Part shown: positions 17,752 through 20,058 of the stretch, one piece after another
Numbering within the stretch: the stretch's first letter is position 1
Layout: each line of letters starts with the position of its first letter
Made by a program: the position numbers and the translations under genes
Assembly: GCF_030506325.1 (NCBI RefSeq)
Contig: NZ_CP120683.1
Location: forward strand, 1,426,001 to 1,490,000
Reading direction: 5' to 3'
DNA: 64,000 bases
Source: Tunicatimonas pelagia
GTDB taxonomy: Bacteria > Bacteroidota > Bacteroidia > Cytophagales > Cyclobacteriaceae
The notes under the pieces: generated by a model
The model's database searches: none
Seen by the model: the letters and a program-made list of their open reading frames with translations, nothing else
Told to the model about the DNA's origin: nothing

Positions 17752-18108
17752 ATGACGAAAACTTCTCAACAGCAAACCGGACAACGGGGTGAAGACATCG
17801 CACTTAATTATCTAAACCAGCAAGGCTTTACTTTAGTTAAGCGAAATTTTCGCTACCGCCGAGCTGAGGTTGATTTGATCGTGCAAAAAGATAAATTACT
17901 GGTATTCGTAGAAGTAAAAACCCGCCACGATACCAGCTTTGGCTTTCCCGAAACATTTGTCAAACCCGAACAAACTGAGTTGATCGTCGCTGCGGCTGAC
18001 CACTATGTTCAAGAGAATAATTGGGAAGGAATGATTCGCTTTGATATTGTAGCAATTACTTTACTGCCTGACTTAGAGATCGAGCACTTTGAGGATGCTT
18101 TTTACTAA
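17752..18108 (+). CDS. yraN: YraN family (UPF0102) PD-(D/E)XK-like protein
   Basis: A small (118 aa) predicted nuclease-fold protein of the YraN/UPF0102 family, often near replication or cell-envelope genes and linked to recombination or DNA processing. The nuclease-like residues are intact: E39 and D41 (RAEVDLIV) and E54-x-K56 (FVEVKTR), with the preceding GEDIALNYL helix. Its exact role remains unproven. It is the gene immediately before the GxxExxY element. Confidence 0.88.
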   Translation: MTKTSQQQTGQRGEDIALNYLNQQGFTLVKRNFRYRRAEVDLIVQKDKLLVFVEVKTRHDTSFGFPETFVKPEQTELIVAAADHYVQENNWEGMIRFDIVAITLLPDLEIEHFEDAFY

Positions 18109-18118
18109 CATATAGATA

Positions 18119-18185
18119 CAGTAGGGCCCATAGGATGTAATTATTAGGGTAAAAGAGATAACCATGTAGGCACACAGGGCATAGT
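18119..18185. repeat. left inverted-repeat arm flanking the GxxExxY gene
   Basis: The segment at 18155-18185 (gagataacca...taggcaca...catag) matches, inverted, 18612-18648 on the other side of the GxxExxY gene; identical blocks are gagataacca, taggcaca and catag. A second partial copy of the word (cagtagggcccatag, 18119-18133) matches the continuation cagtaggacacatag of the right arm. The arms enclose exactly one gene. Confidence 0.7.
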
Positions 18186-18203
18186 AGTTGGGCTGATGAT
18201 TGA

Positions 18204-18611
18204 ATGACAAAAGCTGAACTTAAGGAGCATACGTATAACATTCTTAGTGTAGCGATTGAGGTGCATAAACAGTTAGGTCCTGGCTTATTGGAAAGTGTTT
18301 ATCACCGTTGCATGGAACAGGAAATGATACTTCGCCGCTATCCGTTTCAGAGTGAATTAATTGTTCCGGTTACTTATAAGGGGTTGGATTTACATACCGG
18401 GTTACGCTGTGACTTTCTGTTTGCTGACTGTATTGTGATTGAACTGAAATCTGTACAAGCTATGGCTCCCGTTTTCGGTGCTCAGTTGATGACCTACATG
18501 AAACTCTTACAAGTACCCAAAGGCATTTTAATCAACTTCAATGTCACCAATATTTTCAAAGAAGGCCAAAAAACTTTCGTAAACGACCTATTTCGCGATT
18601 TGCCCAACTAA
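18204..18611 (+). CDS. GxxExxY protein (PD-(D/E)XK_3-type)
   Basis: A 135-aa GxxExxY family protein. The name motif is Gly27-LL-Glu30-SV-Tyr33, and the PD-(D/E)XK residues are Asp70 (LRCDFLF) and Glu80-Leu-Lys82 (IELKS), so a nuclease fold with a complete active site is plausible. Members are common in environmental Bacteroidota and their role is not established. It is bracketed by imperfect inverted repeats (18155-18185 and 18612-18648), with start and stop within about 20 bp of the arms, as if gene and arms form one unit. There is no transposase motif. Confidence 0.9.
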   Translation: MTKAELKEHTYNILSVAIEVHKQLGPGLLESVYHRCMEQEMILRRYPFQSELIVPVTYKGLDLHTGLRCDFLFADCIVIELKSVQAMAPVFGAQLMTYMKLLQVPKGILINFNVTNIFKEGQKTFVNDLFRDLPN

Positions 18612-18670
18612 CAGTCTATGTGTCCTACTGTGCCTATGTGGTTATCTCGCTAAGTCACATAGAACCTCAC
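18612..18670. repeat. right inverted-repeat arm flanking the GxxExxY gene
   Basis: Starts one base after the GxxExxY stop codon. It reads, on the minus strand, gagataacca-cataggcaca-gtaggacacatag, matching the left arm with small gaps (about 27 of 33 aligned bases). It lies directly against the 3' end of the convergent permease gene. Confidence 0.7.
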
Positions 18671-20058
18671 AATACAAATTTCAACACAAAAAGACCCGCT
18701 AGTAAATAAAGTACAATCGGTATCTCACTAAACTTTCCTTTCACCACTTTAATCAATACATAAAAGATAATTCCGGCGGCAATCCCGTTGGCAATACTGT
18801 AAGTAAAGGGCATCAGCACCATTGTTAAAAAAGCGGGAAGAGCTTCATCAAAATTGTTAAAGTTTATCTTTTGAATGGATTGCATCATGAGCATTCCGAC
18901 AAGAATCAAGGCCGGAGCAGTAGCTGCTGCTGGAACCATGCCGGCTAAAGGAGCTAGAAAGATAGAAAGTAAAAACAGAATGGCTACTACTAGTGCGGTA
19001 AGCCCGGTTCTTCCTCCGGCCACTATTCCGGCATTGCTTTCAATGTAGGTCGTCACAGTAGAGGTACCCAACAACGCTCCGAACGTAGTAGCCAGGGCAT
19101 CAGCCAGCAATGATCGTTTCATACGAGGTAAGTTGCCCTTTTCATCTAAAAAACCAGCTTTGTCAGCGGTACCAATCAGCGTCCCAATGGTATCGAACAG
19201 ATCCACCATTGAAAAGGAAATTATTACTACCAGCAGCGTAGCAATTACTTGTCCTAAGCTACGATTCTCAGTACTGAATAATCCGGCAAAATCTAGTTGG
19301 AACCAAGTTTTAGAAAGACTGACATCCGCCATACTCATGCTCTCTGGAAGTTGAGTAATCCCAAATAGTAAGCCTACTACTGTAGTAAGAATAATACTAA
19401 ATAAAATTCCTCCGGGAACTTTCAGTGCGTACAGTATACCAATAATAATCAAACCAATACAGGCGACCAGTACCGACGGCGAACCCAGATTGCCCATCTC
19501 CAGAATTTGGGGTGGGGCTTGCTGAATCTGCTCAATGAGTGCGCCCACTTCCAAGGTTTCAGCTCCTAAGATAATGTCAATAATGGGACCCTGATTCATC
19601 CGAACAATTCCCGCATTATTTAGCCCAATTAGCGTTATGAACAGGCCAATACCTGCCGGAATAGCGTAGCGCACTGCTGCTGGTAACGCTCGCACAATTG
19701 CCGAACGGGCTCCGGTAACTGTCAGAATGATAAAGAACACTCCCGAAATGAAAACAATGGCCAATCCCTGCTGCCAGGTAAAGCCATTTTGCAGCACTAC
19801 GGTAAAGGCAAAGAAGGCATTCAATCCCATGCCGGGGGCTTGGGCAAATGGGTAGTTCGCAACCAACGCCATCATCAGCGTGCCTACTGCGGCGGCTACA
19901 CAGGTAGCAATTAATACTCCATTAAAATCCATCCCAGCCTGCTGTAAAATGCTGGGATTCACGAAGATAATATAGGCCATCGTGAAGAAAGTCGTCAGTC
20001 CGGCGACTACTTCAGTACGTACGGTGGTTTGGTTTTCCCGTAGCTTAAATAAGTCCAT
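18667..20058 (-). CDS. NCS2-type purine permease (AzgA/PbuG-like)
   Basis: A polytopic membrane transporter of 463 aa with 12-14 hydrophobic segments. The AzgA/PbuG-like (hypoxanthine/guanine/adenine) branch is indicated by the opening FKLRENQTTVRTEVVAGLTTF, by GMGLNAFFAFTVV near 75 and by VTTYIESNAGIVAGGRTGLT near 315. It probably takes up purine bases with protons. It is divergent from the OmpA/PD40 gene across a 280-bp spacer that contains a large palindrome; I see no purine riboswitch there. Confidence 0.9.
   Translation of the reverse strand: MDLFKLRENQTTVRTEVVAGLTTFFTMAYIIFVNPSILQQAGMDFNGVLIATCVAAAVGTLMMALVANYPFAQAPGMGLNAFFAFTVVLQNGFTWQQGLAIVFISGVFFIILTVTGARSAIVRALPAAVRYAIPAGIGLFITLIGLNNAGIVRMNQGPIIDIILGAETLEVGALIEQIQQAPPQILEMGNLGSPSVLVACIGLIIIGILYALKVPGGILFSIILTTVVGLLFGITQLPESMSMADVSLSKTWFQLDFAGLFSTENRSLGQVIATLLVVIISFSMVDLFDTIGTLIGTADKAGFLDEKGNLPRMKRSLLADALATTFGALLGTSTVTTYIESNAGIVAGGRTGLTALVVAILFLLSIFLAPLAGMVPAAATAPALILVGMLMMQSIQKINFNNFDEALPAFLTMVLMPFTYSIANGIAAGIIFYVLIKVVKGKFSEIPIVLYLLAGLFVLKFVL

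Follow-up and report, generated by a model that had tools for sequence, protein, structure and literature searches.

The closest described counterparts of the locus analysed here are the REP/REPIN-RAYT systems (REPtrons, TnpA-REP). As in those systems, inverted copies of a palindrome stand on either side of a small nuclease gene, further copies of the palindrome lie between genes without it, and a single genome can hold several gene/repeat pairs with separate vocabularies. However, the GxxExxY enzyme belongs to the PD-(D/E)XK nucleases rather than to the HUH Y1 transposases, its arms never both contain GTAG and are built of 7-10-nt words, and the gene-free hairpins that were aligned are 91-150 bp long with an inner motif. 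Bacterial IS MITEs, such as the Cardinium MITE (PMC9769881), offer another comparison: inverted repeats at both ends, intergenic dispersal and apparent derivation by internal deletion from a gene-bearing parent recur here, but the GxxExxY parent encodes no recognised transposase and no target-site duplication was seen. A Bacteroidetes subclass of HUH enzymes is reported (PMC6006769) to have "atypical secondary structures" on its flanks, copies of which occur at other places in the genome, and the matches listed for REP/RAYT and MITE literature with Bacteroidetes concern HUH- or insertion-sequence-based repeats. The Rpn proteins (YhgA-like, transposase_31) are linked to recombination, horizontal transfer and phage defence (PMC5350276, PMC10327210). 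GxxExxY, PF13366 or TIGR04256 turn up in three PMC papers: in an algal-virus gene table, in a remark on a reverse-transcriptase neighbour, neither passage dealing with arms, and in PMC9756366, where PF13366 is mentioned once. Twelve arm strings are absent from the PMC open-access literature, a scope that leaves preprints and most subscription papers outside.

The window, a stretch of 64,000 nucleotides from Tunicatimonas pelagia, holds a GxxExxY gene between yraN, which served as the anchor for locating the orthologous site in relatives, and a permease gene convergent to it. The features of the locus are as follows.

17752..18108, plus strand: yraN/UPF0102, upstream host neighbour, outside the unit (PF02021, 7.5e-26)
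18109..18146, no strand assigned: putative decayed outward-facing left arm, recognised by comparison; 18109-18138 pairs 77% with 18611-18640
18155..18184, plus strand: left inward arm GAGATAACCATGTAGGCACACAGGGCATAG; its first 20 nt are 90% complementary to 18629-18648
18204..18611, plus strand: GxxExxY gene, 408 bp, 135 aa, predicted PD-(D/E)XK nuclease fold with D70/E80/K82/Q94/Y98
18616..18648, minus strand: right inward arm CTATGTGTCCTACTGTGCCTATGTGGTTATCTC, beginning 4 bp past the stop codon
18649..18671, no strand assigned: possible decayed outward-facing right arm (GCTAAGTCACATAGAACCTCACA); 18651-18663 pairs 85% with 18615-18627
18667..20058, minus strand: xanthine/uracil permease, downstream host neighbour, outside the unit (PF00860, 5e-48)

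The coding content of the unit is GxxExxY alone. An earlier note on this DNA had described the gene with arms close to both ends, which is what we find: the left arm, as read from the sequence, ends at about 18184, 19 bp upstream of the ATG, the right arm lies 4 bp off the stop, and the blocks that it quoted (gagataacca, taggcaca, catag) are all present in the arms. The cleanest pair joins 18155-18174 with 18629-18648. Arms were scored by aligning the left flank locally to the reverse-complemented right flank, dinucleotide shuffles serving as the null. The window arms score 15.0 against a shuffle mean of 7.3, a value matched by 1 of 2000 shuffles with 100-bp flanks, by none of 2000 at 150 bp and by 2 of 2000 at 200 bp, and none of 629 other window positions taken with the same geometry reaches it (maximum 12.5). 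Given these shuffle and position controls, the window arms are real, and the location of the gene between inverted arms is confirmed. The second related word that the earlier note saw on the left likewise holds up, as 18109-18138, and it has a clear counterpart in a congener (L142), where a clear back-to-back arm pair with an outward CTATGTGTCCTACTGTGCCTATGTGGT stands at the position of the window's putative decayed left arm. By likeness to the two-sided arm pairs in L142 and L009, an outward arm is possible on the right of the window gene as well. The words flanking the inverted GxxExxY copy of the congener G297 resemble the window's right arm (L360, score 20.5).

The protein itself is placed firmly by profile. 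It matches TIGR04256 GxxExxY (E 4e-36, 123.8 bits against a cut-off of 35) and PF13366 PDDEXK_3 (E 1.6e-34, 119.2 bits against a cut-off of 22), the latter being the sole Pfam match on the gene. In an alignment of 36 proteins, namely the window protein and 35 picked from the 80 fetched loci described below, the PD-(D/E)XK residues D70, E80 and K82, already noticed as kept, are invariant, as are Y98 and the G27, E30 and Y33 of the G-x-x-E-x-x-Y motif, and Q94 is present in at least 90%. The AlphaFold2 model (pLDDT 95.1, pTM 0.87) has as its closest structure 4ic1 (SSO0001, a Cas4) with Z 9.2 over 100 residues and an rmsd of 3.9 A; the next entry has Z 7.7, and restriction enzymes and Holliday junction resolvases appear among the lower rows. 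Foldseek places LHK-Exo and lambda exonuclease nearby, with a best E of only 6e-3, and a Cas4 profile matches faintly (E 0.003). Both the catalytic triad and the core fold expected of the PD-(D/E)XK superfamily can be recognised in the sequence and the model, and nuclease activity is predicted. The Cas4/RecB-like/lambda-exonuclease group thus provides the best structural neighbours and shares with GxxExxY a QxxxY motif after the triad, a feature of the RecB group; unlike that group, GxxExxY is short (135 aa) and, at the window, solitary between yraN and the permease. The Rpn proteins, which also have a PD-(D/E)XK fold, belong to a different Pfam family (PF04754). By sequence, no solved homologue was found at E up to 10. 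A phage origin was rejected, with no match among 50,697 phage records and no PHROG, as was membership of a known defence family, for which the weak Cas4 match was the only one.

How general the arms are was assessed in the best 80 of 270 relatives from GTDB genomes, many of whose contigs are MAG contigs; 75 of the 80 loci were usable, with a whole gene and at least 150 bp on both sides. Arms equalled by none of 100 shuffles flank 57 of these 75 homologues, and 54 of 75 score at least 15, against 3 and 0, respectively, of 113 control ORFs from the same contigs; 18 homologues have no arms exceeding every shuffle. A second set, chosen by profile score only (the 30 best among 296 genomes of the phylum, 29 of them readable), has significant arms in 21 of 29, and yraN control genes have them in 0 of 29, a comparison from which L124 (no intact frame) and L143 (contig ends) were left out. 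Across nine whole genomes, 24 of 27 copies carry arms. These 27 were taken from 30 listed copies, L363 (the window copy), L368 (under the cut-off) and L376 (a fragment) being set aside; raw flanks were used for the broken genes L372, L375 and L355, and L364, with an internal stop, was taken as a 94-aa frame. The passing copies include L372, L355 and L364, and the failing ones are L365, L375 and L353. The arms are tied to the GxxExxY family, and the earlier note's expectation of inverted arms with similar words around most copies was borne out. The second copy in the window genome (L001/L004), which passes too, has arms of a different word, TGTCAGAATCAGGATTCAAGAGAT (score 16.5, z 8.7).

Plasmid copies were viewed at five of six matches (H6 was left out). 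A complete Gemmatirosa plasmid (Gemmatimonadota) carries a full AACCGCAGAGGACGCAGAGG hairpin on each side of the gene, and arms are present around the Bacteroides and Bernardetia plasmid copies; a Treponema copy has only a weak arm match (p 0.05). The gene at L342, where hairpins are present, was matched in two pieces and is therefore possibly broken. On a Sphingomonas parapaucimobilis plasmid (L343), an armless GxxExxY gene sits between fabD and fabG, a copy that is possibly domesticated. The window genome also holds a single arm, ATTACCACATAGGCACATAG, without a gene, at G000:C1:3479951-3479973 (L008/L092).

The arms consist of short rows of 7-10-nt words (ACCACATAGNCACATAG, AACCATATAAGGCATATAAG, ACCACAGAGGCACAGAG, CCGCAAAGAGCGCAAAG, GCCACGGATTAAAGGATT and others), which agree from left to right within a copy and vary between copies. 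A survey of the words covered 77 of the 80 loci plus the window (L026 was short, and L034 and L082 had truncated frames). The left and right word classes, called independently, are the same in 52 of the 53 classifiable loci among the 78 examined, where 34.4 would be expected (p 1e-4); an alternative comparison of classes, giving 75 of 76, is partly circular because an alignment served to choose the arms. Over 78 arm-bearing loci, the arms become more alike as protein identity increases (Mantel rho 0.58, p 0.0005), a correlation for which co-inheritance alone could suffice. The stronger point is that paralogues within one genome have words of their own: G373 has four GxxExxY paralogues with four different word sets, and the vocabularies of the paralogues in G461 and G381 differ likewise. 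The words of one of the G373 copies (L352) match a gene-free hairpin, GCCACGGATTAAAGGATTC, of the same genome.

Gene and words are also associated at the level of genomes. GxxExxY is matched in 152 of the 296 genomes drawn from the window's phylum, 149 of them over the cut-off. The pattern ACCACANAGN{1,3}CACANAG has 381 matches in 85 of the 296 genomes, and the reversed pattern 12. At least two matches occur in 43 genomes, of which 42 have GxxExxY; the association holds when stratified over four large families (one-sided p 2e-4), no single family being significant alone. GxxExxY is missing from nine of the 85 genomes that bear the words, and one of the nine has 3 matches. The earlier note would have taken arms recurring without any link to the gene as evidence against its reading, an objection that the data touch only in part: at 19 of 21 strict-pattern sites (7 of them belonging to one tandem array) the nearest 1.5 kb or so contain no GxxExxY gene, but 370 of the 381 wider-pattern matches come from genomes in which GxxExxY is matched.

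Gene-free copies were located in five related genomes of the Flavobacterium type. A 115-nt hairpin without the gene is matched 9 times in G461, 10 in G381, 16 in G413, 2 in G373 and 8 in G362, counts which take in the ends of gene-bearing units. Each of G461, G381 and G413 has a GxxExxY copy with CACATAG words. In G373, one CACATAG word lies near one GxxExxY copy and there are otherwise none, and G362, despite its 8 matches, has two GxxExxY copies, neither with CACATAG words nearby; either the cognate gene was lost from these genomes or a partner is not needed. Of the 45 places, 30 were inspected. GxxExxY is absent from the surrounding 1.5 kb at 24 of them; the strict two-arm pattern is shown by 12 of the 24, the rest being half-arms or degraded. 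In the full gene-free hairpins, arms resembling TTGAAACACATAGTCACATAG...CTATGTGTCTATGTGTTTAA enclose an inner motif, AAGTGAAACGNCT, which is also present within the 3' interior of the gene-bearing unit, so that gene-free hairpin and gene-bearing unit have both arms and inner motif in common. At L226/L254, such a hairpin directly follows a gene-bearing unit, with arms and inner sequence common to both. Given the motif in the 3' end of the unit and the adjacency in L226, the hairpin looks like a deletion derivative, and it has the makings of a MITE, being short and gene-free with terminal inverted repeats in common with a gene-bearing parent. Nineteen hairpins, 91-150 bp long, were selected by arm patterns and then aligned. 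Arm pairs are kept in 94.1% of cells, a figure partly built in because the hairpins were picked by their arm patterns. Double changes that preserve pairing occupy 12 cells, a count that none of 500 shuffles attains, and come from two pairs only; counted by pairs, double changes (2) do not exceed the shuffled value (2.1). Elsewhere, G076:C1:794641-796987 (L090 onward) is a tandem array in which about eight half-arms (ACCACATAGACACATAG) alternate with AAACCGCAGAGGCGCAGAG-type words.

Presence varies at orthologous sites, and the unit comes, goes and inverts. At the window site, the gene of the congener G297 is inverted and stands between clear arms, and the nearest congener, G298, has neither gene nor arms and no GxxExxY match anywhere in its genome; the contig of a third congener ends at the site. 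The earlier note had looked for relatives lacking gene and arms precisely. G298 does lack both, but a 101-aa minus-strand ORF (L141:1868-2173) occupies the gap between yraN and the permease. In Flavobacterium-type genomes, the site at radC holds the gene in 5 of 30 loci viewed (L225, L226, L228, L238 and L242; 128 genomes had a match), L224 has a single arm, and L227 has a short arm-free spacer before the same next gene. The copies in L238 and L242 are of a different GxxExxY lineage with ACAGATT words, just past the same radC stop. Over ten pairs of orthologues at this site dN/dS is 0.09-0.20, so that the protein is kept by selection there, radC being the one site at which purifying selection was measured. 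Gene-free hairpins are present in some species and absent in others at the site groups S266, S274, S267 and S270, and S273 shows a mixed, degraded state. S283 is occupied by a CACATAG hairpin in two species and, at the same place, by a hairpin of other words (GCCACGGATTAAAGGATTC or close to it) in three; these words match the arms of L352 in G373. This double occupancy, together with that of radC, hints that gene ends or existing hairpins may be preferred. Target-site duplications are not evident at the six orthologous site groups, where junctions and empty sites are ragged. The earlier suggestion that gene and arms form one mobile unit is partly supported, in that the unit comes, goes, inverts and has gene-free relatives, but neither a target-site duplication nor a precise empty site for the window copy was found.

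The scenario that we favour, with somewhat better than even confidence, is that gene and flanking arms together make up a single copy of a REPtron-like nuclease-palindrome module in which a PD-(D/E)XK enzyme replaces the HUH transposase. Gene and arms are paired, and flanking palindromes with gene-free copies elsewhere are found as in REPtrons, G362 being an exception with no gene copy of the same words. The gene-free repeats scattered in the same kinds of genome suggest a mobile repeat that is served by a nuclease, not by a transposase. We infer that the nuclease cleaves and that it has a part in the spread of the repeats. A RecB/Cas4-like PD-(D/E)XK nuclease, encoded between inverted copies of its own palindrome, would recognise the hairpin or cruciform form of its own arm, most probably while that arm is single-stranded, for instance behind a replication fork, and would nick or trim it. 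The resulting end might then be copied or joined elsewhere by host repair. In this way the arms, with or without the gene, could be moved to intergenic sites, perhaps preferentially beside existing hairpins, and a transposase of a known type would not be required.

It is also conceivable that the arms are palindromes which another enzyme, for example a RAYT/Y1 transposase, mobilises in trans, and that GxxExxY is a passenger caught between copies, like the four-helix-bundle genes. The 23S rRNA IVP four-helix-bundle genes of PF05635 (L170-L199), a family with 13 matches in the window genome, resemble GxxExxY in being small orphan genes of many copies bracketed by inverted word arms (14 of 30, e.g. 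AAGTATCAAGATGTAAGTATCAAGAT, GAGTCATGAGTCGTGAG), and differ from it in Pfam family and vocabulary. The arms are therefore not unique to a nuclease, and the same layout around two unrelated orphan families, PF13366 and PF05635, is what passengers would show. A passenger role would also fit the Y1_Tnp (PF01797) profile matches in 18 of 21 chosen genomes, the CACATAG hairpins of G362, which has no GxxExxY copy with CACATAG words, and the Bacteroidetes HUH subclass with its flanking structures, as reported in PMC6006769. The Y1_Tnp genes of chosen word-rich or hairpin-bearing genomes do have arms in 17 of 29 loci (of 30, L334 being left out for its short flank), a signal comparable to that of GxxExxY, but these arms differ. 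Several are of the classical REP kind (e.g. GTCCCGTAGGGAC..GGTAGA), they hold 3 GxxExxY-type words in all, and GTAG or CTAC stands in both arms at 7 of 15 armed Y1_Tnp loci against 0 of 78 armed GxxExxY loci, the window having one GTAG inside a word of its left arm and none in its right. The Y1_Tnp test serves as a positive control for the method, and it reveals distinct palindromes for the two enzyme families. The window genome, G413 (16 hairpin matches) and G362 (8) have no match to Y1_Tnp, the only profile of this kind searched, and copy-specific words and a dN/dS near 0.1 would be needless for a passenger. A RAYT acting in trans as the owner of the arms was rejected on the differing arms and on the three of 21 genomes, the window's included, that have no match. 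We regard a passenger role for GxxExxY as unlikely.

Less likely still is that the arms are RNA or transcription devices kept by selection, be it as terminators, as elements that stabilise mRNA or as a cap that restrains a harmful nuclease in the manner of an RNA antitoxin, with the gene-free copies as independent terminators. As DNA strands the hairpins fold well (four of five with z between -5.4 and -7.4, the other with -1.6), 18 of the 19 lie wholly outside ORFs of at least 100 aa (one overlaps by 8 bp), and the S266 insertion abuts a T-run, all of which would suit such a role. However, terminators need no set words, and like words occur in other phyla, as on the Gemmatirosa plasmid; presence/absence polymorphism and an inner motif in common with the gene-bearing unit point to dispersal instead. 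A known RNA family for the arms was rejected, since Rfam on five loci gave four matches, all in one tRNA region of L270 and none on an arm. Finally, low-complexity words that are common in these genomes might by coincidence produce apparent inverted repeats around any gene. The words are indeed short and repetitive, and a few control ORFs pass the shuffle test, but no control ORF attains the score of 15 that most GxxExxY genes reach, yraN genes have no significant arms, and the reversed pattern is rare in the 296 genomes, which makes coincidence hardly credible.

A broader and more tentative proposal, to which we give somewhat less than even credence, is that the GxxExxY proteins are founders of a class of palindrome-dispersing enzymes unrelated to HUH/DDE transposases, each recognising and spreading its own word-built hairpin, with new vocabularies arising as the enzyme diversifies. 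The PF05635 genes might then be a second independent case, and the orphan gene inside its own hairpin a general minimal mobile element. GxxExxY is a widespread family named from a sequence motif only, and the copy-specific palindromes provide it with a concrete candidate substrate. Since the words differ from copy to copy, they constitute a ready series of enzymes and targets for how a compact nuclease changes its DNA specificity. If the nuclease drives the spread, repeats would be dispersed here without a transposase, in parallel to RAYT-REP but by an unrelated enzyme, and a number of intergenic hairpins in Bacteroidota, and in at least one phylum besides, would find an explanation.
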